Positions 6,054 to 32,997 of a stretch of 64,000 bases of DNA are shown piece after piece; positions within the stretch are counted from its first letter, which is position 1, and every line of letters begins with the position of its first letter. The stretch spans positions 1,550,001 to 1,614,000 of the forward strand of contig NZ_CP093313.1 of assembly GCF_025264625.1 (NCBI RefSeq), in the 5' to 3' direction. The stretch is from Occallatibacter riparius. GTDB taxonomy: Bacteria > Acidobacteriota > Terriglobia > Terriglobales > Acidobacteriaceae. The notes under the pieces were generated by a model. It saw only the letters and a list, made by a program, of their open reading frames with translations. It did no database searches and was not told the DNA's origin. Both the position numbers and the translations under genes were made by a program.

Positions 6054-7282
6054 CTTTCCAGCAGGGTGCAGAGCAGATTCGACCAGGTCTCCCCGATCGA
6101 TTTCCATTGGAAGCGCTCGTCCGTAGCAAGCCTGTAGGCTGACAGGGACATTTCATATCGAGCAGATTTATTCTGATAGAGCATTTCCAGTGCTTCACTT
6201 ACAGAGTCGATGCGTACATCACCCTCGAATTGCGGATCTTCCTTAGATTTATGCTGCTCCGTATCGAGCATCAGCGCGCTGCCAGGCCACAACTCGGCTC
6301 CAGCGGAGTGATTGGGAACCATCTGCGGCGCCCCTGTGGCAGCGTGCTCAAAGCTGACCAATCCCCAGCCTTCCCGCTGAGAGGTGTTCATTCCGATATC
6401 ACACGCGTTATAGAGAAGGTTGAGCCAGCGGTCATCAGCATGTGGATGCTTTTCAGGGAGTTCTTTTGGCAAGATGCGGTCGCGGAGGCCCAATCGATCA
6501 ACGAGTGTAACCTCGTCCGGTAGCGCAGGCCTTGTGGCCAGGTGCAGATACATCCGCACGTTCGGTGGCTTTCCCTGCGCGAAGCGAGCGAATCCCTCAA
6601 GTGCGAGATCGATCCTTTTGAACGGTTGGTTACGGTTGGCATTCAACACGATCAAGCCATCAGCAAGTTCGGGGCGATCCGCGAACAGGAGTTGGCGAGC
6701 GTGACGGACGCGGTCGGGCGACGGGTCGCCGTTCTGCCTTCTGATGAGGGGATAAAAGGCCTGCGTGTCGACGCCATGAGGGATTGTGGCGAATTGCGGG
6801 CTCTCGCCTCCGGCTTCCAGCGCGTCACGAAGCAATCGCTCTGCTTGAGGGGTGAAAGCGACAAGGCGGTCCGCTGCACCGAGTTGTGTGGCAATAGCCG
6901 GAGGGAGCGAATCTCGGCCGTGAATCGCAACGTATAGAACGGTGCGTATCTCCGGATGGAGGGTGAACGCAGTCATGAGCCGGGCGCACGCCCATGGCTC
7001 GTCCATCATTAGAACGACATCAGGATGAAGTGATTCGATAATTGCCGCTAATTCCGCGGCATTATGGAGGTCGCCGGGGGCCGGGTTGCAGATAACCGGG
7101 CAAGGCCAGTCAGGAATTGGCGAGTCAGGCACAAGATTGATAGCGAAGTGATGCAGCTCGAACCCGGCATCGCGCAGCGCTATAACGATCTGGCGCAAAA
7201 CACGGCTGAAACCAGTTGGAATGCCGCAGTGGCCGACGACAACGATGACGGGCCGGATGCGATCCTCCCACTGGTTCAACAA
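6050..7282 (-). CDS. GT4-family glycosyltransferase
   Basis: A 410-residue GT-B glycosyltransferase. The N-terminal domain opens with a Rossmann-like VIVVVGHCGIPTGFSRV. The C-terminal domain has LNANRNQPFKRIDLALEGF and the donor-site region SQREGWGLVSFEHAATGAP, the EX7E-type motif of group 1 transferases. Such enzymes move a sugar from a nucleotide donor to a lipid, glycan or small-molecule acceptor in the cytoplasm. It is the last gene of an operon with three large unrecognised proteins and starts 13 bases after the 305-residue one. Two TTG codons stand at the likely start; the first is taken. The acceptor is unknown. Confidence 0.86.
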   Translation of the reverse strand: MLNQWEDRIRPVIVVVGHCGIPTGFSRVLRQIVIALRDAGFELHHFAINLVPDSPIPDWPCPVICNPAPGDLHNAAELAAIIESLHPDVVLMMDEPWACARLMTAFTLHPEIRTVLYVAIHGRDSLPPAIATQLGAADRLVAFTPQAERLLRDALEAGGESPQFATIPHGVDTQAFYPLIRRQNGDPSPDRVRHARQLLFADRPELADGLIVLNANRNQPFKRIDLALEGFARFAQGKPPNVRMYLHLATRPALPDEVTLVDRLGLRDRILPKELPEKHPHADDRWLNLLYNACDIGMNTSQREGWGLVSFEHAATGAPQMVPNHSAGAELWPGSALMLDTEQHKSKEDPQFEGDVRIDSVSEALEMLYQNKSARYEMSLSAYRLATDERFQWKSIGETWSNLLCTLLES

Positions 7283-7295
7283 GACTCAGGCAACG

Positions 7296-8213
7296 CTAAG
7301 CAATGGCCAGGTATGAACCGTCAAAAGGATACTGATGCGTAGACTTCAGATAGCCATCGATCACATTCGTCAGCGCGGTGCCCATAAAATTGAGCTGCGA
7401 TGGATCGTTCAAGACCACGTTGATCTGCTGAACCAACTGTTTCAAACCATCCGCGCTGTTGAATGCCGCCATGGCCAGGTTATTGTAGGCGTCCTTCTTA
7501 CTTCCTTTGGGGATGCTCTGGATGTCGATCGCAATGTCGATTTGGGCATCATTTGGCCAGGTTGAGCTAGGAACAAAGTTGATGCTGCTAACTGCGATGT
7601 TTAGCACGCCAGGGCTAAGAGCGGTGATGTTGAAACCGATCGTAATCGTAGGCGTCGAGTTGAAAGTGGCGGTAAATGTGCCTGTTCCCACCTCAGGAAC
7701 GGGAGGCCCCGCACAAACCGTGTTGTCAGCGCTGCAACAGCAGTATTGAGTGAAGGTGAAATTACCGGTGACGATGAGATTCTTCTGGTAGTTGGGCAGT
7801 GTGGAAAGCAGCATGACGGCTTGCAACTTGAGCGCGTTATCCTGATTGGATGTCATCGACTGCATGTAAGCGTTCCGAGCTCCGGAAACCACCAGCCCGC
7901 CTGGTGTAGGGCTGCCCAAAGTGAGGCTTGGATAGGCATTCGGTACGCCAATGAACGATTGAATTCCAGGGCACGGTGAGCTCTGAATGTCGATAGTGGG
8001 GCAAATGGCGTTGGCCTGATTCACAATCGTCGGATCAGTTATCGAAAGGTTCCATTGCAATACCTGGCTCTGACCATAGGGGTCGTAGCCGTTCGCCTGG
8101 ATCCAATCCGGGAAGTAATACGGGTTCGGGTTCCCCTGACCTCCCGGCGTATTAATCATGCCCATCACCTGCTGGAGCATCTTCTGGATGATTGGAGCTA
8201 AAGGATCCGCCAT
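7296..8213 (-). CDS. Unrecognised beta-rich protein, operon member
   Basis: A 305-residue protein I do not recognise. It starts with an amphipathic stretch, has no obvious signal peptide and is rich in Thr, Asn, Pro and aromatic residues. A Cys cluster, QYCCCSADNTVC, lies near residues 157-168. The middle has alternating hydrophobic/polar strands such as TGTFTATFNSTPTITIGF, suggesting a beta-sandwich. The C-terminal third is more helical. AGGAGG stands a few bases upstream of the ATG. It is third in the operon 12363-6050. Its neighbours are the 911-residue beta-rich protein upstream and a glycosyltransferase downstream, so it may act on a glycosylated product or be glycosylated. That is a guess. 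Confidence 0.8.
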   Translation of the reverse strand: MADPLAPIIQKMLQQVMGMINTPGGQGNPNPYYFPDWIQANGYDPYGQSQVLQWNLSITDPTIVNQANAICPTIDIQSSPCPGIQSFIGVPNAYPSLTLGSPTPGGLVVSGARNAYMQSMTSNQDNALKLQAVMLLSTLPNYQKNLIVTGNFTFTQYCCCSADNTVCAGPPVPEVGTGTFTATFNSTPTITIGFNITALSPGVLNIAVSSINFVPSSTWPNDAQIDIAIDIQSIPKGSKKDAYNNLAMAAFNSADGLKQLVQQINVVLNDPSQLNFMGTALTNVIDGYLKSTHQYPFDGSYLAIA

Positions 8214-8261
8214 GAGCCTCCTGCTTTCCGGGAAACTGGATTGCTTACCGCGTTGTACTCG

Positions 8262-10997
8262 TTACTTAGCGTGGATAATCTCGAGCAGTTCATCGTAGGT
8301 CTTGTCCCGGTATGGTTCCAGTCCTTCGATGACTTCTTTGGCGGACGCCTGGAAGTCTGGACTGGCAGCCGCCGCGGTTGTCCGAATGATGTCTATCGCC
8401 AGGGGGAGATATTTACCTGCTGCAAACTCGGGTGTCCCCCTGTACATGCGAAGAATGTCATCGGATACAAGCCGCACATTGGTGTTGTAGCGAAGAATCC
8501 GCTCGGCCTCTTCGCGATGCGAATAGTAGTGGAACAGAAGCGCATCGCCCTTCGGAGTATTCATCAAATCGGAGAGTACCGCGGGGACGGTGTGCACAGC
8601 CGGATGTATGCCGGATGGGACAGCCGCCATGGCAGTCATGTGGCCGGTAGCCGTTACCATCGAAGACGAAGCACCCATTGCATCGTTGCCGGTGACCACT
8701 GCGCAAGCTTCCTGAAGACCATCCCAGATTTCGCCGGCTAGCTTGTATGCGTCTTCGAAGAGGATGCCCAGTTGCTGCGCCACCAGACCGGCGACGTAGG
8801 AAACCAGGTCGACAATGCCCTCGATGATCTGCAGCAGGAGCTTGGTCAGAAGCTCGGCGCTTTGCAGAATGAAATCGAGCACGAGCTTGGCATTGTTTGC
8901 CAGCCAATTAACGATGAATGATCCAAAGTCGCTTAGCGCATTCGTCACCTGGTTAACATCGAGCGAAACCGTAAGGTCGAAGTCGATTCCCACGAAGCTG
9001 AAATGCAGGTCGAAGTGGAAATACGGAGCCGACGTCGGCATGTACTGATCCTGGCAGATCGGCGACGATGGAACGATGGTGCCGAGGCCGAGGCAGACAG
9101 AGAGTTTTGGAGTCGGAATGGTGAACTGTGGGATAACACCCCAGGGTCCCAGTGTGATATCCGGCGGCGAGAAGTCCGCGTCGAGCGAGCCGGCAAAGCC
9201 GCCCGAACTGGGCTGGAAGAGGACGTGTATCTGCTCGGAGAAAATGCCGCCTGCGCCAAGGTCCATGTCGAACTCGAAGACATCCTTGGTGGCGAGAGCA
9301 ACGATTGAGACGCCAACCAAGCCGAGGAGAGTCACCTTTGCGTTGATGGCGAAGTATGCGCCCGGCTGCGAGGCGATGGAGTTGCAGTATCCACTGCCGC
9401 TGGTATCAATGCAGGCCGAGGCTCCGGAAGTTCCATCCGCGCTTGAGATTGTGAGCCACGTGATGCCGCCGCCGCTGATGACAATGGGCCCGCCGTTATA
9501 GCTGATGATGCCCATGGCTTGGACGGCGGTTGTCGGACTGGTGATGAGATTAAATCCAAAGTCCAGCGTGTAGCCGAAGAAAGAAATCTCACCGGAACAC
9601 CCGATGCCCGGATTGTATGTTTTCCCGAGAATCTTGACGGTATTGGCAATCGCCCAGAATTGAAGGTCCTTGAACGTGATGTCTTTGAGCAGCGGGAAGC
9701 TGTTAAAGTCCAGGACCGGCAGGAAGTCAGTGATGAGTTGTCCCAGGGTAACTGACTGGTCCTTCTGCTCGGCTGAGAGTTCTGCCGCAACGTAATCCGG
9801 CACCTCGAAATCCAGGAATCCCGCTCCGGCGGTGAGCAGGACCGGGTTCGTCTGCCCGGTGCCTATCTCGATGGTCCCAGCCATTGCAATCCCGATGCCC
9901 TCTTCATTCAGGGTGAAAGCAAAAGCAACGGTCTGGATGGTTAGGTTCGGTATTCCGAAGGGATGAAGCCAGCCGCCTTCGGCTGTGAGCTGGAGGGAAA
10001 GCTCGAGACTGGGCGTTGTTCCATAGATAAAGGTACCTGCCCCGGTGATAACGAAGCTTTCCTTGCTCGAAATGTTGACCGTACATGTCACGCTGAGCGA
10101 AATCGATCCGGAATCGGCAGAGGTCGATTGCCACTCGAGCGAGAAGTCATTGAACGCGAACGCGTTGGTCGAAGCACCCTCAGACAGGTCCGCTTTGACG
10201 CTGGCCTTGGACAGTCCGCCGTCCTTGGGGACGATAGCCGTAAGTTCGAGCTTCGTGTCGGGTAGGAAGTCCTTGATCGGCGATAGTGCGCCGTCCAATT
10301 CGAGCAGTCCGATTACGGTCAGGCCGGCGGAAACTTCCTCTGGCGGGAAAGGGAAGCCCGAGAAGGCGCTAAGATCAGTGGCATCGACGCTTGCGAAGAA
10401 GGCGCCAAACTCACCGGAAATCGTAAGGCCGCTAAGAACCGGAAAATCGGAGAACGGAGTCCACGACCCCGTAACCATGAACCCGCCGACAAAGCCGAGC
10501 GTCGCACCGTCGTAGCTGACTTCAAGCAGGCCGGTGCCGAGAGGGTTGTTTTCAAAGCTGATCGTCGGGGTGACGACCATGTCGATGGTTGTGGCGCCCG
10601 GATCAACATCGAGTTTGAGACCGCCACCGGTGAGCGCGAGCTGGTTGAACGGGAAGAAATTCAGTTGGGACGGCCATGCATCTGAGAGCAGGACCGTCGA
10701 TTGAAGCGTCCCGGTAAAGTTCAGCGTCACATCGTTTTCGGTCGCAGTGAAGACGGCAACCACTTTGACTGACTGCACCAACGGGGCCTTGGATCCCTCG
10801 CCCGAGATCGTGGCCACTGCAGAGTCGCCGGTAAGACTGAAATTCGCCCCGTTGACATTAATCCCGCCGCTAAAGAGCTGCGTGACCGCATTCCCAATCG
10901 CTGGTCCGAAGACAGAGGAAATGTCCGGAGTGATACTGATCGATTTGCCATCACTGGCCAGGTACTTCTTGACTATCGCGAGGACATCCACAGCCAT
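8262..10997 (-). CDS. Large unrecognised beta-repeat protein with helical C-terminal region
   Basis: A 911-residue protein with no family I can name. Residues 1 to about 670 consist of alternating amphipathic strands with recurring Gly/Thr/Asp turns (for example TVIGLLELDGALSPIKDFLP), which looks like an elongated repetitive beta structure. Residues 680-765 are strongly helical and hydrophobic (LVLDFILQSAELLTKLLLQ and onwards), possibly a membrane- or lipid-binding bundle. The last 100 residues are a separate helical domain. It lacks a Sec signal peptide and catalytic signatures. AGGAGG stands eight bases before the ATG. It is second in a four-gene operon. The amphipathic character would suit binding of a hydrophobic product made by the neighbouring lipid/isoprenoid genes, which is inference. 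Confidence 0.82.
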   Translation of the reverse strand: MAVDVLAIVKKYLASDGKSISITPDISSVFGPAIGNAVTQLFSGGINVNGANFSLTGDSAVATISGEGSKAPLVQSVKVVAVFTATENDVTLNFTGTLQSTVLLSDAWPSQLNFFPFNQLALTGGGLKLDVDPGATTIDMVVTPTISFENNPLGTGLLEVSYDGATLGFVGGFMVTGSWTPFSDFPVLSGLTISGEFGAFFASVDATDLSAFSGFPFPPEEVSAGLTVIGLLELDGALSPIKDFLPDTKLELTAIVPKDGGLSKASVKADLSEGASTNAFAFNDFSLEWQSTSADSGSISLSVTCTVNISSKESFVITGAGTFIYGTTPSLELSLQLTAEGGWLHPFGIPNLTIQTVAFAFTLNEEGIGIAMAGTIEIGTGQTNPVLLTAGAGFLDFEVPDYVAAELSAEQKDQSVTLGQLITDFLPVLDFNSFPLLKDITFKDLQFWAIANTVKILGKTYNPGIGCSGEISFFGYTLDFGFNLITSPTTAVQAMGIISYNGGPIVISGGGITWLTISSADGTSGASACIDTSGSGYCNSIASQPGAYFAINAKVTLLGLVGVSIVALATKDVFEFDMDLGAGGIFSEQIHVLFQPSSGGFAGSLDADFSPPDITLGPWGVIPQFTIPTPKLSVCLGLGTIVPSSPICQDQYMPTSAPYFHFDLHFSFVGIDFDLTVSLDVNQVTNALSDFGSFIVNWLANNAKLVLDFILQSAELLTKLLLQIIEGIVDLVSYVAGLVAQQLGILFEDAYKLAGEIWDGLQEACAVVTGNDAMGASSSMVTATGHMTAMAAVPSGIHPAVHTVPAVLSDLMNTPKGDALLFHYYSHREEAERILRYNTNVRLVSDDILRMYRGTPEFAAGKYLPLAIDIIRTTAAAASPDFQASAKEVIEGLEPYRDKTYDELLEIIHAK

Positions 10998-11037
10998 CGA
11001 AACGCCTCCTGCACTGCTCCGGGATAAGCGAAAGAGC

Positions 11038-12363
11038 CTAAACCTTCTTTGTACCGGCGTGCTCAGCCAGCGCCAGAGTCATGAGCCTGCTCATCAAAGT
11101 CAGCAGCCCCGAAGATTGGACAGTAGAGGCTACGCGCTTGCCCAGGAACGACTTCAGGAAGCGAGCCTTGTCGACCGCCGCAGTGAGTTCACCATGAAGC
11201 TTGCCCGGAAATGCGCCTAGCCGAACGGACACTTCGGGGAAAGTGCATTGCGCGGACGTAAACGTCACGGTGTGCGCGGATCCATCCGCCGACCGTGTAA
11301 CCTTTCCGTGCAACGTGAGGGATGGCACTGCAAAGTAGGAGTTGAACTGTCCGTCGATCGGCGCCCCGGTCTCTTCCTTCAAAAGGATGCCGCGGGCCAT
11401 ATCATCCTTTGCCTTCTCAATTTCCTGGACATGGTCAGCAAGTTCGTTACGGAGCTGGGTCCGCCACAAGGGCTCAGCATGAACGAACTTAGCTGCGGAC
11501 AAGGCCGAAGCCTGAGGAGGGGGCGACGTCTTAACAATATTCATGACGCTGTCGACAGTCTGCGAGTCCTGGGCAGGCCCCTTGGTCACGCCATCAAACT
11601 GAGTTGCCGCTGTGGCAGCCTCCACGTCGGTCACTGCGGCAACCAGAAACATCTGCATCGTGAGAGCGTGGCGGTTATACGCCGACGCTCCGCCGCCGCT
11701 GTTTACTGATACGCTCCCAGTATTTCCGGGCGTAGCTGCCGTGTGGGTCTGCTGTGCGTAATAGGAGGTTGTCTGACCATCGGTTGGGTAAGAAGCCCAG
11801 CGCTGAGCGAACTTAGGATTGTCGAACGCGTCGCTATAGGCGCTGTTATGGCGATAGTACGTGTTGAGCATCAAGTTGCCATTCGGCCCCGTGTCTGTAG
11901 CTAGCTGGTCTTGGTAACTCTTCGCGAGAGAAAGCGAATCGTTCGGGTCGGCAGCAGCAGCAAGCGGGCTGCCGCTCTTCATTTGCTTGCTCGCAACCTT
12001 GAGAGCCGATCCCGTCGCACGGGTACGGCGAGCCTCGTAATTCCCCGCGTACTTTAGCTCGTGAAACTTGACAGTGGCAGTAATATCGCCCGTGGCCGCA
12101 TTGTGAGTGAAGCTGACAGGATGGATCGTGTCCAACTGCGAGACGGCTGCACCCTTTAGATTCAGGGTTACAGCGCCCCATGGCTCGCTATTTAAAACCA
12201 CAACTGGACCTGTGTCCGGCAAAGTAAGTTTGCTCGGAGGACGTAGCCAGGCTAGGCCGATGCGGCGCCGGCCCTTGAGTGCGCGCTTCAACTCATATGT
12301 CCCGTAGGGTTTCCAAAGCTCGTGCCACGACGCATCTACTGCAGAACCGTTATGTTCAGACAT
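11038..12363 (-). CDS. Unrecognised protein, first gene of four-gene operon
   Basis: A 441-residue protein without a motif I recognise. The N-terminal 140 residues look like short beta segments. The centre (about 150-260) is Ser/Thr/Asn/Gly-rich, with a stretch like GNTGSVSVNSGGGASAYN. Residues 330-400 return to beta character and the end is an Ala/Leu-rich helix. No signal peptide is visible. It heads the operon and is followed after 40 bases by the 911-residue protein. It shares the low-complexity, beta-rich style of its two partners, which suggests that the three form one assembly. The promoter should lie in the 316-bp gap shared with the divergent polyprenyl synthase gene. Confidence 0.8.
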   Translation of the reverse strand: MSEHNGSAVDASWHELWKPYGTYELKRALKGRRRIGLAWLRPPSKLTLPDTGPVVVLNSEPWGAVTLNLKGAAVSQLDTIHPVSFTHNAATGDITATVKFHELKYAGNYEARRTRATGSALKVASKQMKSGSPLAAAADPNDSLSLAKSYQDQLATDTGPNGNLMLNTYYRHNSAYSDAFDNPKFAQRWASYPTDGQTTSYYAQQTHTAATPGNTGSVSVNSGGGASAYNRHALTMQMFLVAAVTDVEAATAATQFDGVTKGPAQDSQTVDSVMNIVKTSPPPQASALSAAKFVHAEPLWRTQLRNELADHVQEIEKAKDDMARGILLKEETGAPIDGQFNSYFAVPSLTLHGKVTRSADGSAHTVTFTSAQCTFPEVSVRLGAFPGKLHGELTAAVDKARFLKSFLGKRVASTVQSSGLLTLMSRLMTLALAEHAGTKKV

Positions 12364-12679: not shown

Positions 12680-13696
12680 TTGAAAGATCCGATAAGTCGT
12701 GCCAGAGAGCTGATCCATGCCGACGTCATTCGTTTTCAAAACACTTTAGAGGAAACTCTCAAGCCGCAAGCCGATTACCTGACCGAGACCGAGTACGAGA
12801 CGTATCGCCGCGGCAAAAAGCTACGCCCCATCATGCTTATGCTGGCGGCGAGAATGGTCCTGCCCGAAGGAGAGACAGATCTGCCCCAGAAAGTCATCCA
12901 GGCTGCTGTCTCGCTGGAGATGCTGCACGTAGCAACGCTCATCCACGATGACATCGTCGACTTTGCTCCCACGCGGCGCGGTCTGAAGACTGTGTACTCC
13001 GAACGGGGTACCGAAATGGCAGTCCTTGTCGGCGACATGCAGTTCATCCAGGCGATTCGATGCTTCGTTGAAGGCATCAACGTGCAGCAGGATATGTACC
13101 TGGTGAAGATGGTCCTGGATGTGGGCTTCGACATTTGCCGTGGCGAGATGGATGAAATCATGACAGATGCCCATTCCGACCCCGTGCATTTGCGCGAGCG
13201 CTACTACCGCACCATCGACCGAAAAACGGCAACACTCTTCGCGCTCGCCTGCGAATCTGGCTGCATGTTGGCGGGGGGCACCAGGCGCCAGGCCTTTTAT
13301 CTGAGCCGGTACGGAAGGCGCTTTGGGATGGCCTTTCAGATCATGGACGATATCTTCGACCTCGTTCGCCCCGAACATCTCGCTGGCAAATCCCCCGGAA
13401 TCGATATCGAACAGGGCCGGCTTTCGCTGCCGATCCTCTACGCGCTCGAAGAAGCTGGTGAAGATGACATGCTGCGGAAGATCCTCAGGAAAGAACCGCA
13501 CACGGCCGAAGATCTGTCCCAAGCGATTGAGAGTGTCGGTCTTTCCTCGGCGACCATGAAGGCCTACTCGCAGGCACGGCAGTGTGCACTTGAGGCGGTG
13601 GACTTTCTTATGGAGTTCCCTGTCTCTGTTTACAGAGATGCCCTGCAGGAGATTGCGAGTTACGTTGTAGATCGCGATTTCATGGAGCCGGACTGA
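12680..13696 (+). CDS. Trans-polyprenyl diphosphate synthase (octaprenyl/heptaprenyl type)
   Basis: A 338-residue class I isoprenyl diphosphate synthase. The first Asp-rich motif is LIHDDIVDFAPTRRG (DDxxD followed by RRG), the second is FQIMDDIFDL, and the C-terminal GIDIEQGRLSLPILYAL corresponds to the KSPGxDxxxGxxTLP region. It condenses isopentenyl diphosphate onto an allylic diphosphate using Mg2+. The start is TTG at 12680, preceded by AAAGG. It could be the housekeeping quinone side-chain synthase, but it lies against a second, unusual isoprenoid-synthase gene whose 3' end it overlaps by 17 bases. It may therefore supply that enzyme. Chain length cannot be read with confidence. Confidence 0.92.
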   Translation: MKDPISRARELIHADVIRFQNTLEETLKPQADYLTETEYETYRRGKKLRPIMLMLAARMVLPEGETDLPQKVIQAAVSLEMLHVATLIHDDIVDFAPTRRGLKTVYSERGTEMAVLVGDMQFIQAIRCFVEGINVQQDMYLVKMVLDVGFDICRGEMDEIMTDAHSDPVHLRERYYRTIDRKTATLFALACESGCMLAGGTRRQAFYLSRYGRRFGMAFQIMDDIFDLVRPEHLAGKSPGIDIEQGRLSLPILYALEEAGEDDMLRKILRKEPHTAEDLSQAIESVGLSSATMKAYSQARQCALEAVDFLMEFPVSVYRDALQEIASYVVDRDFMEPD

Positions 13697-15563
13697 GTTC
13701 GCTTGCGCCTTTGCGGCGGGCCAGAATGGCTAATTCGCCCGATTCGTCGCCTCCAAGCGATCGGAACATTCGCATCCACCGTTCCACCCCCGGTCCCGTC
13801 AAAGTCGGAGATGGGATCCGCGCGACGAACTCCAGCCCGCAGCCCTCGATGAGATGGCGAAGCGAACGCTCGTTGAAGAATTGCGGATGCAGAATGGGGT
13901 GCACCGCATCCCAAAGCCGCCCGAAGATCCTGAACTGCAGCGCCTCGCTGTCCGGTACTGCTACGTACAGGAACGCACCCGGTTGTAGCGCCTCCGCAAC
14001 TGCGGATATAGATACGGCCGGCTCCGCGAGATGCTCAAGTACATGGCTCATCACAATGTGATCGAAGCTTCCCCAAGGAAGACGGCGCGCCGGCAATCGG
14101 AGTTGCTGCACATGATCTCCAAACACCGGGCGAAGAGAGGCGCAATTGTTTTCATCGCTATCGATGCCGTGCACCTGAAAGCCATACGCGCGGGCAGCAA
14201 GCATAAGGTGTCCGCGGCCGTGGCCGATATCGAGCAGCCGCCGTCCGATACTCCTGGCGCTGAGCAGCCGGCAGATGTGGTCGACGTAGATGCTCTGGGA
14301 CTCAAGAAAGGGATCGGGAGCCTCGCCGGATTGTTCCTGATTCATTTGCTGGATGATGTCATCGCGCAGACGCGGGCTGACAAATATGTGAGTGCAACCG
14401 CTACACCGGTTGTACTGGAAGCCCTGTTTGCGAAAGATTGCGGCTGAAGCATTGAGATGGCAGACAGGACAGCTAGTGGTTTCGATCGCGTCAATGCCGT
14501 ATCGCTGGACAAATTCGTCCACAGTGGCGTGCCACGCCAGGCCACCCCGATGAACCCCCACCGCCAGATGCTCCGGCTGTTCTGGACCGAAAACGCCGAG
14601 CTTTTCCATCTCGCTTCGTGAGTGGCCGAGAAGTTTGAGGGCTGCCAACTTCTCCAACTCGGACAACTGACGCGCTTCGCCATACAACTGCAGAAGGTCC
14701 GCAGTCACTGAAGCAGCAACACTGGGAAGCACACGTGCAAGCGACCGCCCGGAATCCGCTTGGGACCGGAAAACTGAAACGATGTTGGGGCGGCCTTGTG
14801 ACTCGTCGCGAGCCGCATCCTCCAGATCATTCAACTTTTGAGCTAGCGCGTAATAGCCGCAGAGTAATTGGTACAGTTTTGACGAACGCTTTGGATCCAA
14901 CGCGTCGTACAGGATGCGCCAGTAATCGACGTTCTTAAGCTCAATGAGGTGCTCGTAGAATTCCTCGGACCAGTGTTGAGGTTCGCTGCAGTCCATCAGA
15001 ATTCCGGTCACCAGACGACGAAGCGAAGTGATGACCTGTCTCATCACATCGTCCGCTCCACGTGGCAATTGCTCCAGGCCCTCCAGGGTAAGAAGCAACG
15101 CAAGGAGCACGGTGAGCGCTTCACTCTCCGCTCCTGTACCTCGCCGCTGGGCGAGCGAGCCCAGCAGAGTGACCCTGCGCCCCCGATAAAGATGATGGCG
15201 GTCAAGAAAATCGTCAAGAACACGGCCCGCAAAATAGACGAGGGCACAGGGACCAATGCGTTGTGAAACTAACTCCGGATTTGCCTCAATGGCGATGGCA
15301 AAAATCGGTATGTCACCGAGGGCCCACTGCATCCACTCGACATAGTCCGCGGTCAACTCAGCTAGGAGCTGACAAAGTGCGTTGCCGCGCGAGGTGCGGG
15401 AGACATTAGCCTGAAATTGTTCGATAGAGCGATGAAATGAATCCTGCACCACCGATTGCCACAACCGAAGCGCGGCAACATGGTCGTGATCGAGTTGCGC
15501 TGCCGCGTCTGCGGCGTCAAGCCGGAGGGCGTCGATTCCCTGGAACTGCTCGGCCGTCAACAT
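13680..15563 (-). CDS. Class 1 isoprenoid-synthase domain fused to zinc-ribbon SAM methyltransferase
   Basis: A 627-residue two-part protein. The N-terminal helical half carries VLDDFLD (residues 117-121) and LNDLEDAARDESQGRPN (NDLED at 245-249), the pair of acidic motifs of class I isoprenoid synthases that bind Mg-diphosphate. After a linker there is a Cys4 zinc ribbon (C365, C368, C387, C390). It is followed by a class I methyltransferase with motif I LLDIGHGRG near 443-451 and MSHVLEHLAEP downstream. A prenyl transfer or cyclisation linked to methylation is inferred. The ATG at 15563 is chosen because GGGAGG lies eight bases upstream; it overlaps the preceding stop. It is last in the operon 18957-13680. 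The fusion itself is the odd feature. Confidence 0.85.
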   Translation of the reverse strand: MLTAEQFQGIDALRLDAADAAAQLDHDHVAALRLWQSVVQDSFHRSIEQFQANVSRTSRGNALCQLLAELTADYVEWMQWALGDIPIFAIAIEANPELVSQRIGPCALVYFAGRVLDDFLDRHHLYRGRRVTLLGSLAQRRGTGAESEALTVLLALLLTLEGLEQLPRGADDVMRQVITSLRRLVTGILMDCSEPQHWSEEFYEHLIELKNVDYWRILYDALDPKRSSKLYQLLCGYYALAQKLNDLEDAARDESQGRPNIVSVFRSQADSGRSLARVLPSVAASVTADLLQLYGEARQLSELEKLAALKLLGHSRSEMEKLGVFGPEQPEHLAVGVHRGGLAWHATVDEFVQRYGIDAIETTSCPVCHLNASAAIFRKQGFQYNRCSGCTHIFVSPRLRDDIIQQMNQEQSGEAPDPFLESQSIYVDHICRLLSARSIGRRLLDIGHGRGHLMLAARAYGFQVHGIDSDENNCASLRPVFGDHVQQLRLPARRLPWGSFDHIVMSHVLEHLAEPAVSISAVAEALQPGAFLYVAVPDSEALQFRIFGRLWDAVHPILHPQFFNERSLRHLIEGCGLEFVARIPSPTLTGPGVERWMRMFRSLGGDESGELAILARRKGASELSPAP

Positions 15564-16492
15564 GAAAATGCGCCTCCCTCGAGGCTCTTGGCGATGGCAC
15601 TTACCAGAAGCACAACGTTGAACGAAGGACAACAGACATCGTCATGGAATGGCTCTAACTTCCATTCCCAGGGAGCGATCGGATCGAGAAGCAGTGGTGC
15701 GAAGAGGTCTTCGATTTCTTCACCACGGTAGTGCAGCGTGAGGAGTGTCTGGAGAGCAAGTGTTCGATCCAGCGGAGCGCAAGCCCAAGGTTCGGCAACC
15801 AGCTTCAGCACCTCCGCGATGAGGGCCTGGCGGACCTCCGCAGAGGCCGGACTGGCTATATGCTCATGGCAGAGCGAGAGCATCCAGCAGGCCGCAAGTC
15901 GTGCCACTGTTGGTTGTCCGCTTCGGTTCAGGATCTGCTGTACACGGTCTAGGACATCGATTCCTGAACATGCCCACAAATAGCAGACAGCGGCTTCGGA
16001 TACCGGACCCGAACCAGGCAGTGCGTCAAGATGTGCCGCCATCGCCCGGGCAGCGTCGATACGCGCTCCTCGATCATCGAAGAGAGCGGCCGTGGCAAAT
16101 GCTGTTGTTACTGAGTCGGTGGGACTGTCCCCCTCTCTTCCGTAAAGGCGCCATGTACCGTCGCTCGCCTGTTGCGAAACAATGTAGTTCCTGAGTCGCC
16201 AGCGCATTGTCAAAACAGTAGCCGTAAGATACTTGCGCTCGCCTGCCGGGATAGCGTCGTAAAGCTGCCGTGAGAAACCGCTCGTCTGCGGAGCCGCGCA
16301 TCCCAGCAATTCCATTGCAAGAACGGAATACAAGGGGCACGGCCAGCACTGGCCTATTTCTTGAACTCTCTTGTACGCTGCAAGCTCCCCCGTGGGCAGC
16401 TGTTGGCTCGCAATCCAGCGCAATGCTGAGACCACAAGTCGGCTGGCATATAGGCGCACGCCGGTCGGAGCGATCAAGGCAGATCGAGTCAT
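15557..16492 (-). CDS. Squalene-cyclase/prenyltransferase-like alpha-barrel protein
   Basis: A 311-residue, mostly helical protein resembling half of a terpene-cyclase alpha/alpha barrel. QQASDGTWRLYG (residues 107-118) fits the QW repeat QxxxGxW, with a weaker one at QQLPTGELAAY (30-40). The segment TDSVTTAFATAAL aligns with the class II catalytic DxDDTA region, but the acid motif reads DSVT (126-129), so a proton-donating Asp is missing. It is therefore a degenerate cyclase, a non-catalytic barrel, or a protein with another role. It overlaps the GT9-like gene by four bases and the isoprenoid-synthase fusion by seven, and so is translationally coupled to both. Association with a terpenoid pathway is strongly suggested by context. 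Confidence 0.68.
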   Translation of the reverse strand: MTRSALIAPTGVRLYASRLVVSALRWIASQQLPTGELAAYKRVQEIGQCWPCPLYSVLAMELLGCAAPQTSGFSRQLYDAIPAGERKYLTATVLTMRWRLRNYIVSQQASDGTWRLYGREGDSPTDSVTTAFATAALFDDRGARIDAARAMAAHLDALPGSGPVSEAAVCYLWACSGIDVLDRVQQILNRSGQPTVARLAACWMLSLCHEHIASPASAEVRQALIAEVLKLVAEPWACAPLDRTLALQTLLTLHYRGEEIEDLFAPLLLDPIAPWEWKLEPFHDDVCCPSFNVVLLVSAIAKSLEGGAFSC

Positions 16493-18165
16493 CCTGTCGT
16501 CTCAAAGCCTGGCCAACAGGCATATTTCAACAAATTGCTGTTTCGCCACTCTGCGGCTCGGCAGCGTAAGTGGAGGAGCGAAGCGGCCGACGCCAGATCT
16601 CCCGCAGGCAGTACCGGCAACAGGTTGAGATAGTCGTTATCGGCCAGCAAGACGGCATAACATCCCGGCCAATCTTTTGCTTGCATCACGACCTCCAACG
16701 TGGCCTCGCGACAATCTGTCCAACGTGTTCTCAGGGTCTGGCTATCGATTTCTGCATCAGCCCGGTTAAGAGCGCAATGAAGACTGTGGGCAGAACGCCG
16801 CAACGCTTGCATGGAAGGCGCGTAGGCAACGCTGGCTTCGACGACACACGTCTCTCCAAGGTCGCCGAGAAGCACACGGGTCTGGGCAATCAGTTCTGCG
16901 ATGGGTGCACCGGCCCGCAGGTAGAAGTTCCCCGGCGCCGGAGCCCTCCAATTTTCAACTCCTTCGCGCGCCAGCACCAGTGTGAGTTTTCCATAGAGCT
17001 GACCGGCATGTGCCGGAAATGAGTCGGAGGTCACCACGATATCGGTCTTCGCGATGCGCTGCATGGCATCGGCAAGACTCAGCAGGCTTCCGGCAACTCC
17101 GATCGTTGACGCTGCTCGCGCACTCACGCCGGCGCGGCCTGCCTTGTCGATAGACTCGGCAAGCTCGCGGGAGAAGGCGCGCGTTGCATAGTTAGCGCCG
17201 GAGTCAATTGCAAATTGAACAGTCACGCCCGGCGGCAGTTCTTCAGGAAGCATTGACAGGAGCAACTCCGACCAGAACTGCTGCGAGGGATCCTCTTTTG
17301 AGGTGAACGGGCTGACATAGATAGCAATCTCCCGGCCAGCGGGGGTCTTTGGGGCCACTGCCTCCGGAAGATGACTCGGGCGTTCCTCTCCATCCCCAAG
17401 CCATTCCTTCATTCGATCCATGTGGTGATAAAAGTTGGCGTAGTAAGGATCGGGGTGTTCCAGCTTCCACACGCGGCCCCCGGTCTTGTCCAAAGCGGAG
17501 AGTTCGCGCAAACCCATGGCAAGCTCGATATAGCGAGTCACTCCCGGCTCTCTGCAGAGGGTACTCAGCAGTCCAGGTCGTTCAAAATCGACCATAGCCA
17601 CGAGGTCGTAATCACCGCAGCGAATCCTCTCGACTAGCTCGCCGAGGCCGTCGTAGAGTCCCTGCGAGTCAACACCCTCAACGTCGCGCCACAGGTCCCG
17701 GTAGCTCGATAGAACGAATAGCGAGGCGCCGGCCGGCATGCGGCGGCGCAGCGAGCCCGCAAGCGGGAAGGTCAGAATCTCGTCTCCGATTCCGATTCCT
17801 TGCCCCAGAATGATCACCGCGCGCTTCACCCCGCTGAAAAATTCTGGCGGAGGCGGGCTATTGCAGACAACGATATTGCGAGGAAGTTCAGGCTCTTTAT
17901 AGCGGTGAAGCCCGCGAAGAATCTGCGGCGCAAAGCGGGCCAGATTCGTCGTAGTCAAGGCGCGCAACATCCCCACGCAGTCCTCAATGGACTCGACTCC
18001 GCTTGACGAAAGAAACGGCGCGAGCGTCTGCAGGCTGGCGATGCGGCCCGTTTTGAAATGAAGATTGCTGCCGCTGATTGGTCGGCGGGAAAGGAAATGC
18101 AGATAGTTCTTGAGCAGCAGAATCGGAAGAAGTGGTGTCGGCTGCAACGATTCGGACTGGGTCAT
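16489..18165 (-). CDS. GT9-like (heptosyltransferase-type) glycosyltransferase
   Basis: A 558-residue protein. After an N-terminal extension of about 120 residues comes a GT9-like core: VIILGQGIGIGDEILTFPLA resembles the first strand-loop of ADP-heptose:LPS heptosyltransferases. The second lobe has IAIYVSPFTSKEDP and IVVTSDSFPAHAGQLYGK, the latter matching the TxDSGPxHxA donor loop with Phe in place of Gly. GT9 enzymes transfer heptose or related sugars. The protein is longer than a normal heptosyltransferase because of extra N- and C-terminal segments. I chose the ATG at 18165 rather than an upstream in-frame one at 18264. It is second in an isoprenoid-related operon, so its acceptor may be a lipid. 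ADP-heptose could come from the hld genes 13 kb away. Confidence 0.7.
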   Translation of the reverse strand: MTQSESLQPTPLLPILLLKNYLHFLSRRPISGSNLHFKTGRIASLQTLAPFLSSSGVESIEDCVGMLRALTTTNLARFAPQILRGLHRYKEPELPRNIVVCNSPPPPEFFSGVKRAVIILGQGIGIGDEILTFPLAGSLRRRMPAGASLFVLSSYRDLWRDVEGVDSQGLYDGLGELVERIRCGDYDLVAMVDFERPGLLSTLCREPGVTRYIELAMGLRELSALDKTGGRVWKLEHPDPYYANFYHHMDRMKEWLGDGEERPSHLPEAVAPKTPAGREIAIYVSPFTSKEDPSQQFWSELLLSMLPEELPPGVTVQFAIDSGANYATRAFSRELAESIDKAGRAGVSARAASTIGVAGSLLSLADAMQRIAKTDIVVTSDSFPAHAGQLYGKLTLVLAREGVENWRAPAPGNFYLRAGAPIAELIAQTRVLLGDLGETCVVEASVAYAPSMQALRRSAHSLHCALNRADAEIDSQTLRTRWTDCREATLEVVMQAKDWPGCYAVLLADNDYLNLLPVLPAGDLASAASLLHLRCRAAEWRNSNLLKYACWPGFETTG

Positions 18166-18297
18166 CTGTGCCTGTCGATACCACCTTGCGGATGGTGCTG
18201 AAAAACATTGTCGTGCCGGGGAAGAGATACTAGCACGGCGCCCCCGAGCTTGTGGAAAGACCACACTGAACTTGCCTAACTCATGCGGGCCGATAAC

Positions 18298-18957
18298 TTA
18301 GTCCACCACGGAAAGAGAGCGAATCAGCCAGAGATTCTCCCGGTCTTCCGTGAACCATACAACGTAACTCAGGAGGCTCGTAAGGAGAGAACTACTGTTT
18401 TTGTCTCGATGATCCACCTGCAGTACAGCTCTGATGAGAATGCCGTTGAGATGAAATACAGGATCGGGAATCTCCGTGAGGGCGATGCGCAACTCTGGCC
18501 CGCGCCAGGAGTCTATCATGGCATCGAGTCGCAGACGGAGTGCGTCTCGGTCCACATCGATATCGTTCAGCATGGTGTGATAGTTCGCGGAGACGCATTC
18601 CATAGCCAGATCGACATCCATCGACTCGATCGCGCGGATAAAACGAAACAGCGTGTCGACCGCAATGGATGCCGCCGCAGTGCTCCATGGCTCCTTCGCG
18701 GGGGTCGCATGCTGCGAAGGAGTCGCAGCCCGTTGCACGGGCACACCTGCATGCTGGAAATACCGGTTCCAATCCGCGCTCTGTGGCGCGCCTACTGGGA
18801 TGGCTACTTCGGGATGCCAGGCGATCAAGAGGTCTGTGGCGCTGGCCAGCCAAGGCTGCTCGGTGATATCGCCTTCCGCCTCATACCAGGGCTTGGGAGC
18901 CAGAGTTGGTGAGGTGTCTTCGGTAAGAACTGGCTGCTCGATTTCTTCCCTGCGCAT
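18298..18957 (-). CDS. NTF2/SnoaL-like domain protein
   Basis: A 219-residue protein with a poorly conserved, Pro/Ala-rich N-terminal 95 residues. A cone-like domain follows, visible as FIRAIESMDVDLAMECVSAN and a strand-rich end with Trp residues. The pattern is that of SnoaL/NTF2-like small-molecule binding domains, which include polyketide cyclases and isomerases. No catalytic dyad can be named. It is the first gene of the operon that continues with the GT9-like protein after 132 bases, and is divergent from the GT4 gene at 19114. A role in product cyclisation or binding is possible but unproven. Confidence 0.62.
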   Translation of the reverse strand: MRREEIEQPVLTEDTSPTLAPKPWYEAEGDITEQPWLASATDLLIAWHPEVAIPVGAPQSADWNRYFQHAGVPVQRAATPSQHATPAKEPWSTAAASIAVDTLFRFIRAIESMDVDLAMECVSANYHTMLNDIDVDRDALRLRLDAMIDSWRGPELRIALTEIPDPVFHLNGILIRAVLQVDHRDKNSSSLLTSLLSYVVWFTEDRENLWLIRSLSVVD

Positions 18958-19113: not shown

Positions 19114-20262
19114 ATGAAGGCTCCACTCAGCAGCCCACTGCATTACTCGTCCTCCGGGTTCGGCCACAGCTTGCGGCTTGCAGTATTTGTCTCCCGTCTT
19201 CCTCCTATCTCGCGTTCCGGCATTGGTGTGAGCGTCTCTGCAGAATGCCATTCGTTGGCAAAGGCGGGGTGCTCGGTTCATGTCTTTACGGCTTCAGAAG
19301 CTGCTTTGAGCGTCCCAGAGGTGGTTCTCAAACCGCTCGCGCGCGATGTTTTTCCCAAGGAGTTGCCTGATTGCGACATTCTTCATTTGCATTCGCTCGG
19401 GATGGCAACCGTAGCGCTCGAAGCAGCGCAACGGCTGCAATTACCACTGGTTTACACGGCTCACTCTTTAATTGAGCGCGAACTCCCGCAGGCACAGGAA
19501 TGGATCCGGGTTCAACATCGTGTTATGGCAGCGGCGCACCACGTTTTCTTCTTGAACAGAATGGAACAAGCGTACTCTCAAATGCACATCGCTTCCCTGA
19601 GAGGGAAGAGTTCGGTGAGATCTCACGGCAGCGTGTCAGCCGCCTCTGAACCTGGCGCCCGTCAGCGCAAGCCTCTGATCGTCATAGCTGGACGACTGTG
19701 CAAAAACAAAGGAACGGATCTTGCGGTGGCGGCATTGAGGCTCGTGATGCGAGCCGAACCGTCTGTCTCCGCGCTCTTCGCGGGTCCCCAGGGTGACGAG
19801 GATTGCGAGGCCGCGGTCGCCGATCTCATCGCCGAATTTCCCCGACGTGTTGAGCGCAGCGGTTGGCTCGAGCGAGGCGATCTGATGAAGACGCTCCGCC
19901 ACGCGCGAATGGCTCTTTGCCCATCGCGCTATGAGCCATTCGGTCTACTGCCGATCGAGGCGTTGCAACTTGGAACGCCGGTTCTCGCCGCTGCTTCCGA
20001 AGGCGCCTGCGAGACCCTGCCCGGCGCACCTGGAGTCGCCCTCCTTCAGTCCGACGATGCTCCTGCCTGGTCCAGGGCAATTCTTCACGAATGGCGGTCG
20101 GGCGCCCTCCTCGCGGACGCGCAACGATCGGGAGCCGCATGGATTGCTGAGCGATTTGATCCAGAGCGGCAAACGAACCTGCTCATTCGCACGCTGCAAA
20201 ACGTCCAAAGCGGCTTCCACGTTGGGGCGCGCAAAGCGCAGGTGCCCTGTCATGTGGCTTGA
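19114..20262 (+). CDS. GT4-family glycosyltransferase heading the KS-CLF operon
   Basis: A 382-residue GT-B glycosyltransferase. The N-terminus shows LAVFVSRLPPISRSGIGVSV, and HSL-type motifs sit in the acceptor domain. The C-terminal domain has VIAGRLCKNKGTDLAVAAL and the donor motif PSRYEPFGLLPIEALQLGTP with both Glu residues. It transfers a sugar from a nucleotide donor in the cytoplasm. It is the first gene of an eight-gene plus-strand operon and overlaps the enoyl reductase gene by 11 bases. The acceptor is therefore probably the acyl or polyketide product of that operon, or a carrier lipid. The promoter should lie in the 156-bp divergent gap before it. Confidence 0.9.
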   Translation: MKAPLSSPLHYSSSGFGHSLRLAVFVSRLPPISRSGIGVSVSAECHSLAKAGCSVHVFTASEAALSVPEVVLKPLARDVFPKELPDCDILHLHSLGMATVALEAAQRLQLPLVYTAHSLIERELPQAQEWIRVQHRVMAAAHHVFFLNRMEQAYSQMHIASLRGKSSVRSHGSVSAASEPGARQRKPLIVIAGRLCKNKGTDLAVAALRLVMRAEPSVSALFAGPQGDEDCEAAVADLIAEFPRRVERSGWLERGDLMKTLRHARMALCPSRYEPFGLLPIEALQLGTPVLAAASEGACETLPGAPGVALLQSDDAPAWSRAILHEWRSGALLADAQRSGAAWIAERFDPERQTNLLIRTLQNVQSGFHVGARKAQVPCHVA

Positions 20263-21004
20263 AGGACGCGTCGCATTCGTCACAGGAGGATCTCGCGGAA
20301 TCGGTCGCGCAACCGCGCTCCGGCTGGCCGCTCACCGGCCTGCGCACATCGCCGTCGGCTATGTGCTGGATCACGAGGCCGCTCGGAATACCGTAGCCGA
20401 AATTGAACAACTCGGCGTTCCGGCCTCGGCACACTGCGCCGATGTGAGCGACGAGTCCGCATTTCGCAATGTCTTTTCCAAGATTGAAAGCCGCCACGGC
20501 CGACTCGATCTCCTGGTATCAGCTGCGGCTCGCGCCTCCTTTGGTCCGCTTCTGGATGCCTCGCCGCGCAGTTGGCAGCGTGTTATGGACCTGAACGCGC
20601 GCGCCTTTCTGCTTGGCGCTCAACTCGCCGCGCCCCTAATGGTTGAAGGTGGGCGGATATTGGGCATCAGCAGCCTGGGAGGGCGCGCCTTTCTTCGGAA
20701 TTATGGTTTGCTGGGTGCTGCAAAGGCGGCGATCGAGAACCTCACGCGATATCTTGCGGTTGAGCTCGCCGGGCGGTCTATCCGCGTGAATTCTGTTTGT
20801 GGTGGCTTCGTCGACACCGACAGCACGCGCATGTTGCCGGAGTTCGAGCAGGCCGCAAGTGCTGTTGCAAGCAAGACCCCGTTGGCTCGCGTTGGCAAGC
20901 CGGAGGACATTGCGGCCGTACTCGCATTCCTTTGCAGTTCAGATTCAGATTGGATCACCGGCCAGACAATCGTGGCCGACGGAGGGCTGTCGCTAGGACT
21001 CTGA
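20252..21004 (+). CDS. fabL: FabL-type enoyl-ACP reductase (SDR)
   Basis: A 250-residue SDR that by key features is an enoyl-[ACP] reductase of the FabL (ENR III) kind rather than a ketoreductase. The cofactor motif is TGGSRGIGRA. The active-site Tyr and Lys are spaced Y151-x6-K158 in RNYGLLGAAKAAIE, the spacing of FabI/FabL, whereas FabG uses Y-x3-K. The flanking ENLTRYLAVELA and the GGFVDTDS and ITGQTIVADGG segments closely follow FabL as I know it. It would reduce trans-2-enoyl-ACP with NAD(P)H, giving saturated chain steps. The start is the ATG at 20252, overlapping the glycosyltransferase stop. Longer upstream starts in this frame fall inside that gene. Confidence 0.82.
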   Translation: MWLEGRVAFVTGGSRGIGRATALRLAAHRPAHIAVGYVLDHEAARNTVAEIEQLGVPASAHCADVSDESAFRNVFSKIESRHGRLDLLVSAAARASFGPLLDASPRSWQRVMDLNARAFLLGAQLAAPLMVEGGRILGISSLGGRAFLRNYGLLGAAKAAIENLTRYLAVELAGRSIRVNSVCGGFVDTDSTRMLPEFEQAASAVASKTPLARVGKPEDIAAVLAFLCSSDSDWITGQTIVADGGLSLGL

Positions 21005-21008
21005 GCCA

Positions 21009-21758
21009 ATGAGCGAGCTTCTTAAAGGACAAATCGCCGTCGTAACCGGCGGATCGCGCGGCATTGGAGCGGCCATCGCAGCTCTGTTTGCTGCTGAGGG
21101 CGCCATCGTGGCGGTGAACTTTCGCGCCGACCAGGAAAGTGCCGGCAAGGTAGTCGAAGCGATCGTCGGGGCCGGCGGAACCGCAACAGCCCACCAGGCC
21201 AACATTGCGGATGAAGCAGAGGTTCACCGCATGGTCGATGAAGTCCTGCAAAAACACGGCAGGATCGATACAGTGGTTTGCAATGCCGGCATCGTGCGCG
21301 ACAATCTCGCCGCATCAATGCCTCTCGAAGACTACGACCAGGTGCTGCAAGTGAATCTGCGCGGGCCTTTTCTGGTGATTCGAGAGGCCCTGCCCTCAAT
21401 GATCCGCGCGCGCTCGGGCTCCATCGTGAATTTGAGTTCAGTGCGGGCAGACACGGGCGGACGCGGGCAATGTAATTATGCCGTCGCCAAGGCGGGCTTA
21501 CAGGCCTTGACTCGTTCTCTCGCCCTCGAACTCGCGCCCAGAAATATTCGCGTGAATGCCATCGCTCCCGGCCTCATTGAGACTGATATGACTCGGGCCA
21601 TTCGCGAGATGGGGTCGGAAGAACTGACTCGTGAAATTCCCATGCGGCGCTACGGTCAACCAATCGATGTGGCTCACGCAGCTGCATTCCTTTGCTCTCC
21701 GCGCGCAGCGTACATTACCGGTGCGGTTCTGAGCGTGGCTGGTGGACTTGGACTTTAG
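21009..21758 (+). CDS. fabG: 3-oxoacyl-ACP reductase FabG
   Basis: A 249-residue classical SDR. The cofactor motif TGGSRGIGAA lies at residues 13-22, VNLRGPF carries the structural Asn116, LSS supplies the catalytic Ser, and NYAVAKAG gives Y157-x3-K161. The C-terminal AFLCSPRAAYITGAVLSVAGG is typical of FabG. It reduces 3-oxoacyl-ACP to 3-hydroxyacyl-ACP with NADPH. It starts four bases after the enoyl reductase stop. Pairing with a FabL-type enzyme, an ACP and a ketosynthase pair makes a dedicated reducing elongation set likely, rather than the housekeeping fatty acid synthase. Confidence 0.93.
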   Translation: MSELLKGQIAVVTGGSRGIGAAIAALFAAEGAIVAVNFRADQESAGKVVEAIVGAGGTATAHQANIADEAEVHRMVDEVLQKHGRIDTVVCNAGIVRDNLAASMPLEDYDQVLQVNLRGPFLVIREALPSMIRARSGSIVNLSSVRADTGGRGQCNYAVAKAGLQALTRSLALELAPRNIRVNAIAPGLIETDMTRAIREMGSEELTREIPMRRYGQPIDVAHAAAFLCSPRAAYITGAVLSVAGGLGL

Positions 21759-21778
21759 TACTCGACAGGAGAAGTGGC

Positions 21779-22435
21779 ATGGAGATACCCCAACAGGAGT
21801 TGGCTTCCGCGTCGGACCCATTTCGCGCAGCGCTTGCCATGGACCTGTCGCAAGTGCAGGAGCGCGCAATTTCAGTCGTCGCCCGATGCCTGGATCGGAA
21901 GCCAGGCGAAGTAAAGCTTAAATCGACCCTGTGGGGAGACCTTGATGCTGAATCGCTCGACATGCTTGACATCGTCTACAGCCTGGAGCGCACATTCATC
22001 ATTCGCATGCCTCGGCTGAATATTCTGCAGAGAGCGACAGACTTGTTTGGCGAGAGCGCCATCGTGCAGGGTGCAATCATCACTCCCACTGGCCTTGCGA
22101 TTCTCAAGGCGTCGATGCCCGAGGTCCCTGCGTCCTTCTTTCAGCCGAACATGCGGCTTAATGAGTTTCGCAGGGGAATCTCAGTTGAATCGCTTGTGCG
22201 CGTGGTGCTCCGTTGTCTGGGCGCCAATGCGGCTTTGCGTTGCGCTGCTTGCCAGGGCGAGCCGCAGCAGGTGCCGAATTCTCCGATGGAGATTCGTTGC
22301 TCACAGTGCGGCGCGGAAATGGTGCTGCCCTCGGGCGACGAGTTGGTGATCGAGGATCTCTTGCGTGTGGGAGCCGAACTCGGAATTCCTAAAGTCGCAG
22401 ATCCCACACCAGAGAATCGCGACCATGAGTCATAA
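21779..22435 (+). CDS. Acyl carrier protein fused to a C-terminal zinc ribbon
   Basis: A 218-residue protein. Residues 20-100 form an acyl carrier domain. The phosphopantetheine site is in DLDAESLDMLDIVYSLE, with Ser59 in an ESLD context instead of the usual DSLD. After a linker, Cys155-x2-Cys158 and Cys174-x2-Cys177 make a zinc ribbon. The carrier tethers the growing chain; the ribbon could dock partners or bind nucleic acid. The start is the ATG at 21779 with GGAG upstream; a frame open further upstream only shadows fabG. It overlaps the KS-CLF gene by 11 bases. Standalone ACPs are 75-100 residues, so both the size and the ribbon are unusual. Confidence 0.82.
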   Translation: MEIPQQELASASDPFRAALAMDLSQVQERAISVVARCLDRKPGEVKLKSTLWGDLDAESLDMLDIVYSLERTFIIRMPRLNILQRATDLFGESAIVQGAIITPTGLAILKASMPEVPASFFQPNMRLNEFRRGISVESLVRVVLRCLGANAALRCAACQGEPQQVPNSPMEIRCSQCGAEMVLPSGDELVIEDLLRVGAELGIPKVADPTPENRDHES

Positions 22436-32318: not shown

Positions 32319-32402
32319 ACATCCTCCGCAGGGAGGGCTAAGTCGCCCGTTGCCACCGCATATTCAGAAGAGGGGAAGGAAGGCAGTTGTTACCATGATC
32401 GA

Positions 32403-32990: not shown

Positions 32991-32997
32991 AAACGCC

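Follow-up and report, generated by a model that had tools for sequence, protein, structure and literature searches.

The locus and the fusion protein

In the genome of the soil acidobacterium Occallatibacter riparius, a single contig of 6.79 Mb (NZ_CP093313.1), we analysed a stretch of 64,000 nucleotides, positions 1550001-1614000, which is referred to here as the window and in the coordinates of which all features are given. At 13680-15563 on the minus strand, the window encodes a protein in which an isoprenoid-synthase-like N-terminal domain shares one chain with a zinc ribbon and an S-adenosylmethionine (SAM) methyltransferase. The features of this gene and of its two immediate neighbours are as follows.

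13680-15563, minus strand: fusion protein of 627 amino acids, comprising a class I isoprenoid-synthase-like domain, a Cys4 zinc ribbon and a class I SAM methyltransferase (translation, Pfam, six-member alignment, purifying selection)
14568-15563, minus strand: N-terminal domain, amino acids 1-332, predicted to be all-helical and isoprenoid-synthase-like (hhalign against PF00348, AlphaFold2 (AF2), Foldseek)
15201-15215, minus strand: first Asp-rich motif, DDFLD, amino acids 117-121; D117, D118 and D121 invariant in six orthologues
14817-14831, minus strand: second motif, NDLED, amino acids 245-249, followed by D253-E254; N245, D246, D253 and E254 invariant, D249 not
14394-14471, minus strand: Cys4 zinc ribbon, C365-C368...C387-C390; all four cysteines invariant (6/6)
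13824-14270, minus strand: Methyltransf_23 domain, amino acids 432-580, with the SAM motif D445/G447/G449/G451 (Pfam E 3.3e-19; invariant residues)
15557-16492, minus strand: class II terpene-cyclase-like protein, a predicted alpha-alpha barrel, overlapping the fusion gene (AF2, Foldseek, weak PF13249 match with E 0.0025)
12680-13696, plus strand: polyprenyl diphosphate synthase, the convergent neighbour of the fusion gene (PF00348, E 3.8e-58)

The fusion gene is a single uninterrupted open reading frame that starts with the ATG at 15563 and ends in a stop codon; this ATG overlaps the 3' end of the preceding gene and has GGAGG upstream of it, and the plus strand across the same segment is full of stops. 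An earlier reading of the DNA from its letters and translations (the sequence-only reading) had placed DDFLD at 117-121 and NDLED at 245-249, on the same chain as a Cys4 ribbon and a SAM methyltransferase. Both positions are exact, and the other two elements are borne out by the four invariant cysteines and by the PF13489 match. Sequencing error as the source of the fusion can be rejected because six genomes carry the fused frame.

Conservation of the fusion

The fused frame is open in the window and in five other Acidobacteria, with identities that range from 35 to 74%: Acidobacteriales bacterium 59-55 (74%), Acidobacteriaceae bacterium KBS 96 (45%) and three further members of the window's family (52, 47 and 35%). 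The fusion was found in 5 of the 398 genomes of this family and in 3 of the 399 genomes of its class (window included), and a scan of contigs gave at least two matches, a lower bound because only two peptide patterns were used. The single-chain arrangement pointed out from the sequence is thus real, being conserved in all six genomes, and its parts were always found together: the searches made turned up no standalone N-terminal domain, no relatives were found among viral contigs and plasmids, and the further matches obtained when the class was searched with the N-terminal profile were weak (E 0.02-0.1), short and chance-like in appearance. In the KBS 96 orthologue (L024:1290-1520), the frame is open well upstream, and the first ATG, GTG or TTG falls inside the conserved region.

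Comparison with the closest orthologue gave a synonymous divergence (dS) of 2.15 and a non-synonymous divergence (dN) of 0.224 for the N-terminal half, and values of 1.42 and 0.128, respectively, for the methyltransferase; with dN far below dS, both halves are under strong purifying selection. Only eight of the 46 acidic residues in the N-terminal half are invariant among the six orthologues (D84, D117, D118, D121, D223, D246, D253 and E254), and six of these eight lie within or beside the two motifs. The first motif takes the forms DDFLD, DDLID and DDAVD, with its acids invariant, and is followed by Y(R/K)G. In the second motif, E248 varies and D249 is replaced by glycine in the KBS 96 orthologue, so that the motif is better stated as N245-D246 together with D253-E254 (N-D-x-x-x...D-E). 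The sequence-only reading would have been refuted by a lack of conservation of both acidic motifs in orthologues, but the first motif and the N245-D246 core of the second are conserved. The two motifs occurred together at separate sites in 0.44% of the shuffles of the N-terminal half, and their conservation is stronger evidence than this statistic.

Affinity of the N-terminal domain

We used hhalign to compare a profile of the six N-terminal domains with a PF00348 (trans-isoprenyl diphosphate synthase) profile built from 36 sequences from genomes of the phylum. The score was 34.7, with a single-comparison E-value of 5.9e-4 and an hhalign probability of only 29%; none of 100 column shuffles reached this score (the best gave 22.4), and the reversed profile gave 18.5. 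In the resulting register, DDFLD falls on DDxxD, YRGRR on RRG, K210 on the conserved lysine, Q242..ND on Q..DD, and QGRPN on the region of GK.TLP. By comparison, a squalene/phytoene synthase profile scored 26.1, barely above its best shuffle (25.7), and aligned around the first motif only. By inspection, the N-terminal domain has no GGKxxRP, the motif that binds isopentenyl diphosphate (IPP) upstream of DDxxD, and no invariant lysine or arginine in this stretch, whereas the neighbouring polyprenyl diphosphate synthase has GKKLRP. Lacking this motif, the domain is unlikely to perform IPP-dependent chain elongation.

Of the features that define PF00348, then, DDxxD followed by RRG is present, and the second DDxxD, GGKxxRP and a match to the family hidden Markov model (HMM) are not, none of the six N-terminal domains matching that HMM at E<=1. 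The six domains also gave no match to the HMM of squalene/phytoene synthases (PF00494), and the class IB terpene synthases (DUF2600, PF10776), considered as another candidate, had no HMM match either in these domains or elsewhere in the genome. The domain would work most like a class I superfamily enzyme, but given the three missing PF00348 features and the lack of DUF2600 and PF00494 matches, we assign it to no named family. Matches of the N-terminal half at the level of chance, such as STING (E 0.05) and Rv2242 (E 0.7), were dismissed.

The AF2 model of the domain, built from three sequences, is all-helical, with a predicted local distance difference test (pLDDT) score of 70 and a predicted template modelling score (pTM) of 0.71. 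When this model was compared with the PDB using Foldseek, most of the top places were taken by isoprenyl diphosphate synthases, and terpene synthases and CrtM ranked below them; the similarity is weak (best E 0.043, template modelling (TM) score about 0.3-0.4). A structure search of viral models gave no informative match. Motifs, conservation, profile and fold agree, none of them being conclusive alone, and together they support the view that the domain probably adopts a very divergent class I isoprenoid synthase-like fold. The identification made from the sequence has in this way gained profile, fold and context evidence, although no family library recognises the domain. As a separate observation, a DUF5685 protein (L033:760-2355, genome G1026) matches the N-terminal profile around the second motif only (LDALEDFAQDRRQGNFNAL; E 0.006) and may have the class I isoprenoid fold as well.

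The methyltransferase and the adjoining isoprenoid genes

The family of the C-terminal half is established: PF13489 (Methyltransf_23) matches amino acids 432-580 with 69.6 bits, against a cut-off of 27, and D445, G447, G449 and G451 of the SAM motif are invariant in the six-member alignment. The ribbon region has only a weak Pfam match (E 0.018); METHYLTRANSFERASE is of the common type that joins a zinc ribbon to PF13489.

The gene of the class II-like partner lies directly upstream of the fusion gene in 6/6 genomes. Its AF2 model (pTM 0.76) retrieved drimenyl diphosphate synthase and ent-copalyl diphosphate synthase first (probabilities 1.00 and 0.98, with weak E-values of 0.047 or more) and MstE further down (TM 0.56), and the protein has QW-like features. 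The polyprenyl diphosphate synthase, the nearest solved structures of which are solanesyl and heptaprenyl diphosphate synthases, adjoins the fusion in five of the six genomes; the window's genome has four PF00348 genes.

The conserved gene cluster

These genes are part of a cluster of about 22 genes (approximately 2131-30786) that is conserved as a block. Its gene order is kept throughout in Acidobacteriales bacterium 59-55, up to the carbamoyltransferase in genome G673 and as far as the contig reaches in G585; the order is rearranged in KBS 96, and the cluster is reduced in G664. The remaining members are the following.

2131-4941, minus strand: NAD epimerase-like protein, flavin-containing monooxygenase-like protein and FabA-like dehydratase, conserved
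5034-6053, plus strand: DUF4185 protein (PF13810)
6050-12363, minus strand: GT4-like protein and three conserved proteins (305, 911 and 441 amino acids) without a Pfam family
16489-18264, minus strand: conserved protein of 591 amino acids, without a Pfam family, kept in the genomes for which that flank is available
18298-18957, minus strand: conserved protein of 219 amino acids, without a Pfam family
19114-20262, plus strand: GT4-type glycosyltransferase (PF00534, E 3.8e-19)
20240-21758, plus strand: two genes resembling short-chain dehydrogenases/ketoreductases (PF13561; first reading frame listed from 19931)
21692-22435, plus strand: acyl carrier protein (ACP)-like protein with a Cys4 tail (NCBIfam ACP models, amino acids 54-107)
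22365-24902, plus strand: ketosynthase (KS) fused to a second half resembling a KS or chain length factor (CLF) (FabF TIGR03150 over the cut-off; PRK06519 match on 469-815)
24827-26740, plus strand: AMP-binding ligase (PF00501, E 1.5e-19)
26737-28593, plus strand: carbamoyltransferase (PF16861/PF02543)
28541-29398, plus strand: 4'-phosphopantetheinyl transferase (PF01648)
29332-30786, minus strand: glycosyltransferase, the last conserved gene of the block (PF13439; conserved in G450 and G664)

The three family-less proteins of 305, 911 and 441 amino acids are encoded at 7296-8213, 8262-10997 and 11038-12363 (minus strand), and the 305-residue gene is present as three tandem copies in L034:8261-11186. 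The 591-residue protein at 16489-18264 looks, by eye only, glycosyltransferase-like, with a C-terminal half that resembles heptosyltransferases. In the ACP-like protein, the carrier domain is followed by a zinc-ribbon-like Cys4 tail (CAAC...CSQC), an unusual ACP architecture that is conserved with the block, and in G664 the KS and CLF-like halves look like separate genes (L036:15448-16731 and 17195-18463). The HldE-like (PfkB and cytidylyltransferase) and NAD-epimerase genes at 30828-34227 (minus strand), possibly involved in ADP-heptose synthesis, are not conserved with the block and were not counted as members of the cluster.

The surrounding genes suggest a terpenoid, yet to the same degree a polyketide and a glycoside, and the cluster looks built for a new kind of glycosylated terpenoid-polyketide.

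Possible function of the fusion protein

On balance, it seems rather probable that the protein is a fusion of two enzymes, in which a divergent, non-elongating class I domain ionises a prenyl diphosphate, or the product of the class II-like partner, and the fused methyltransferase methylates the intermediate, within a cluster that makes a glycosylated and carbamoylated terpenoid-polyketide hybrid. The catalysis, the substrate and the order of the steps we infer as follows. The synthase of the cluster would make the prenyl diphosphate, which the class II-like partner might bind or pre-fold; the N-terminal domain, judging from its motifs, would bind Mg2+ via D117, D118 and D121 and via N245 and D246 (with D253 and E254), ionise the prenyl diphosphate or the product of the partner, and then cyclise or transfer the cation. 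The resulting intermediate would be modified by the zinc-ribbon methyltransferase; attachment of the product to a reduced polyketide would follow, as would the addition of sugars and a carbamate. A more specific proposal, which we advance only tentatively, is that the fusion combines terpene chemistry and methylation in a single chain and founds a new family of class I enzymes. It would take the product that a small class II-type cyclase makes from a long prenyl diphosphate, ionise or transfer this product and pass it on to the fused methyltransferase, giving an undescribed class of methylated terpenoid-polyketide glycosides from Acidobacteria.

Several observations weigh against this scheme. 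Searches of Pfam, NCBIfam and PDB sequences with the N-terminal domain, single or as a profile, identified no recognised family; the AF2 model is of middling quality, worst in the segments that follow the two motifs, and has no Foldseek match below E 0.04; and the third acid of the second motif is not conserved. The DxDD motif is absent in all six partner proteins, and no evidence connects the methyltransferase with prenyl substrates.

The last point bears on an explanation that we regard as quite possible, namely that the N-terminal domain genuinely belongs to the class I enzymes, whereas the methyltransferase acts on a sugar or on a hydroxyl or carboxyl group of the polyketide, so that the fusion only keeps two enzymes of the cluster together and no methylated terpene skeleton is made. 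The closest standalone relatives of the methyltransferase in the class, at about 30% identity, are encoded in exopolysaccharide-like loci or beside a GT2-type glycosyltransferase, and the best of them are accompanied by glycosyltransferases, a flippase-like protein and a polymerase-like protein (as read by eye from the translations of the neighbouring frames). Miscellaneous methyltransferases, and no named prenyl methyltransferase, were found among the PDB matches of the C-terminal half at E<=0.01, a search in which no direct comparison with the GPPMT/SodC type was made, and the cluster itself encodes several glycosyltransferases together with an ACP and a KS-CLF. On the other side, PF13489 is a broad family in which about 30% identity does not reveal the substrate, and the domain to which the methyltransferase is fused is an isoprenoid domain, not a glycosyltransferase. 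Since the enzyme resembles those of exopolysaccharide loci and not known prenyl methyltransferases, a methylated terpenoid product is plausible but unproven.

A second alternative, to which we would give less credence, has the N-terminal domain joining a prenyl group to an acceptor (a polyketide, a sugar lipid or a second prenyl chain) in the manner of MoeN5, instead of cyclising it. The nearest profile family, the trans-isoprenyl diphosphate synthases, is one that MoeN5 also resembles (PMC7839719), and the cluster, with its glycosyltransferases, carbamoyltransferase, epimerase and ligase, contains no other recognised prenyl-joining enzyme. Nevertheless, the domain has no sequence match to any prenyltransferase in the PDB, MoeN5 is not among the 50 best fold matches, and a partner that resembles class II cyclases speaks for cyclisation.

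It is improbable that the N-terminal domain is a non-catalytic remnant that serves the methyltransferase as a scaffold or substrate-binding module. Its extreme divergence, the variable D249, the missing IPP site and the poorly modelled active-site loops would fit such a role, but the concentration of invariant acids in the metal-motif regions is the opposite of decay, and selection on the domain is strongly purifying. That the domain is an ordinary prenyl chain elongase of odd sequence is highly improbable: despite the profile alignment to PF00348, it lacks GGKxxRP, and an elongase with the full motifs already adjoins it in the cluster, in a genome with four PF00348 genes.

Relation to known systems

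By profile and fold, the trans-isoprenyl diphosphate synthases come nearest to the N-terminal domain, which shares with them, in register, both Asp-rich regions and the RRG-like and lysine positions and has most of its top fold matches among them. It differs from them in the lack of an HMM match and of GGKxxRP, in a second motif with ND instead of DD, in a shorter loop after that motif and in the fusion to a methyltransferase.

By pathway, the nearest analogues are the 2-methylisoborneol and sodorifen pairs, in which a methyltransferase acting on geranyl or farnesyl diphosphate and a terpene synthase likewise bring a SAM methyltransferase and a class I isoprenoid enzyme into one pathway. The known partnerships of this kind consist of separate proteins (PMC10881772, PMC13022886), and the methyltransferase of sodorifen-type pathways has cyclising activity of its own (PMC13022886), whereas here a single chain carries a zinc-ribbon methyltransferase of the PF13489 family. 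The comparison is an analogy; we saw no similarity specific to prenyl methyltransferases.

To our knowledge, the sesquarterpene pathway of Bacillus includes no methyltransferase fusion. It resembles the present cluster in bringing together a long-chain prenyl diphosphate synthase and terpene enzymes of class I and class II types, namely, heptaprenyl diphosphate synthase, YtpB and SqhC (PMC7839719); here, however, there is no DUF2600 match, and the partner is small and lacks DxDD. MoeN5, of moenomycin biosynthesis, is a prenyltransferase with a class I fold that does not elongate chains (PMC7839719). It has no sequence match to the N-terminal domain and is not known to be a fusion. The MoeN5 gene cluster contains glycosyltransferases and a carbamoyltransferase, and we know of no KS-CLF in moenomycin clusters. 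Two-domain terpene enzymes, such as the fungal prenyltransferase-cyclase chimeras and geosmin synthase, likewise have a class I isoprenoid domain as part of a chain of several domains, but they pair it with a further isoprenoid domain and not with a methyltransferase. The fusion had seemed unfamiliar when noticed in the sequence, and we found no published fusion of a terpene synthase with a methyltransferase in the open-access literature, which is not proof of absence.

Terpene synthases are mined with family HMMs. None of the family libraries tried here recognises this N-terminal domain, and genome mining could therefore overlook the cluster or class it as plain polyketide synthase-like. An active domain would be a further family within the class I superfamily, and the fusion would then connect isoprenoid chemistry with SAM methylation on one chain. 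In a phylum that has been little explored, the conserved block of 22 genes signals a family of natural products, and one of the strains that carry the block, Acidobacteriaceae bacterium KBS 96, is named. Together with its cluster, the fusion is a concrete target for the discovery of a new enzyme and a new natural product.

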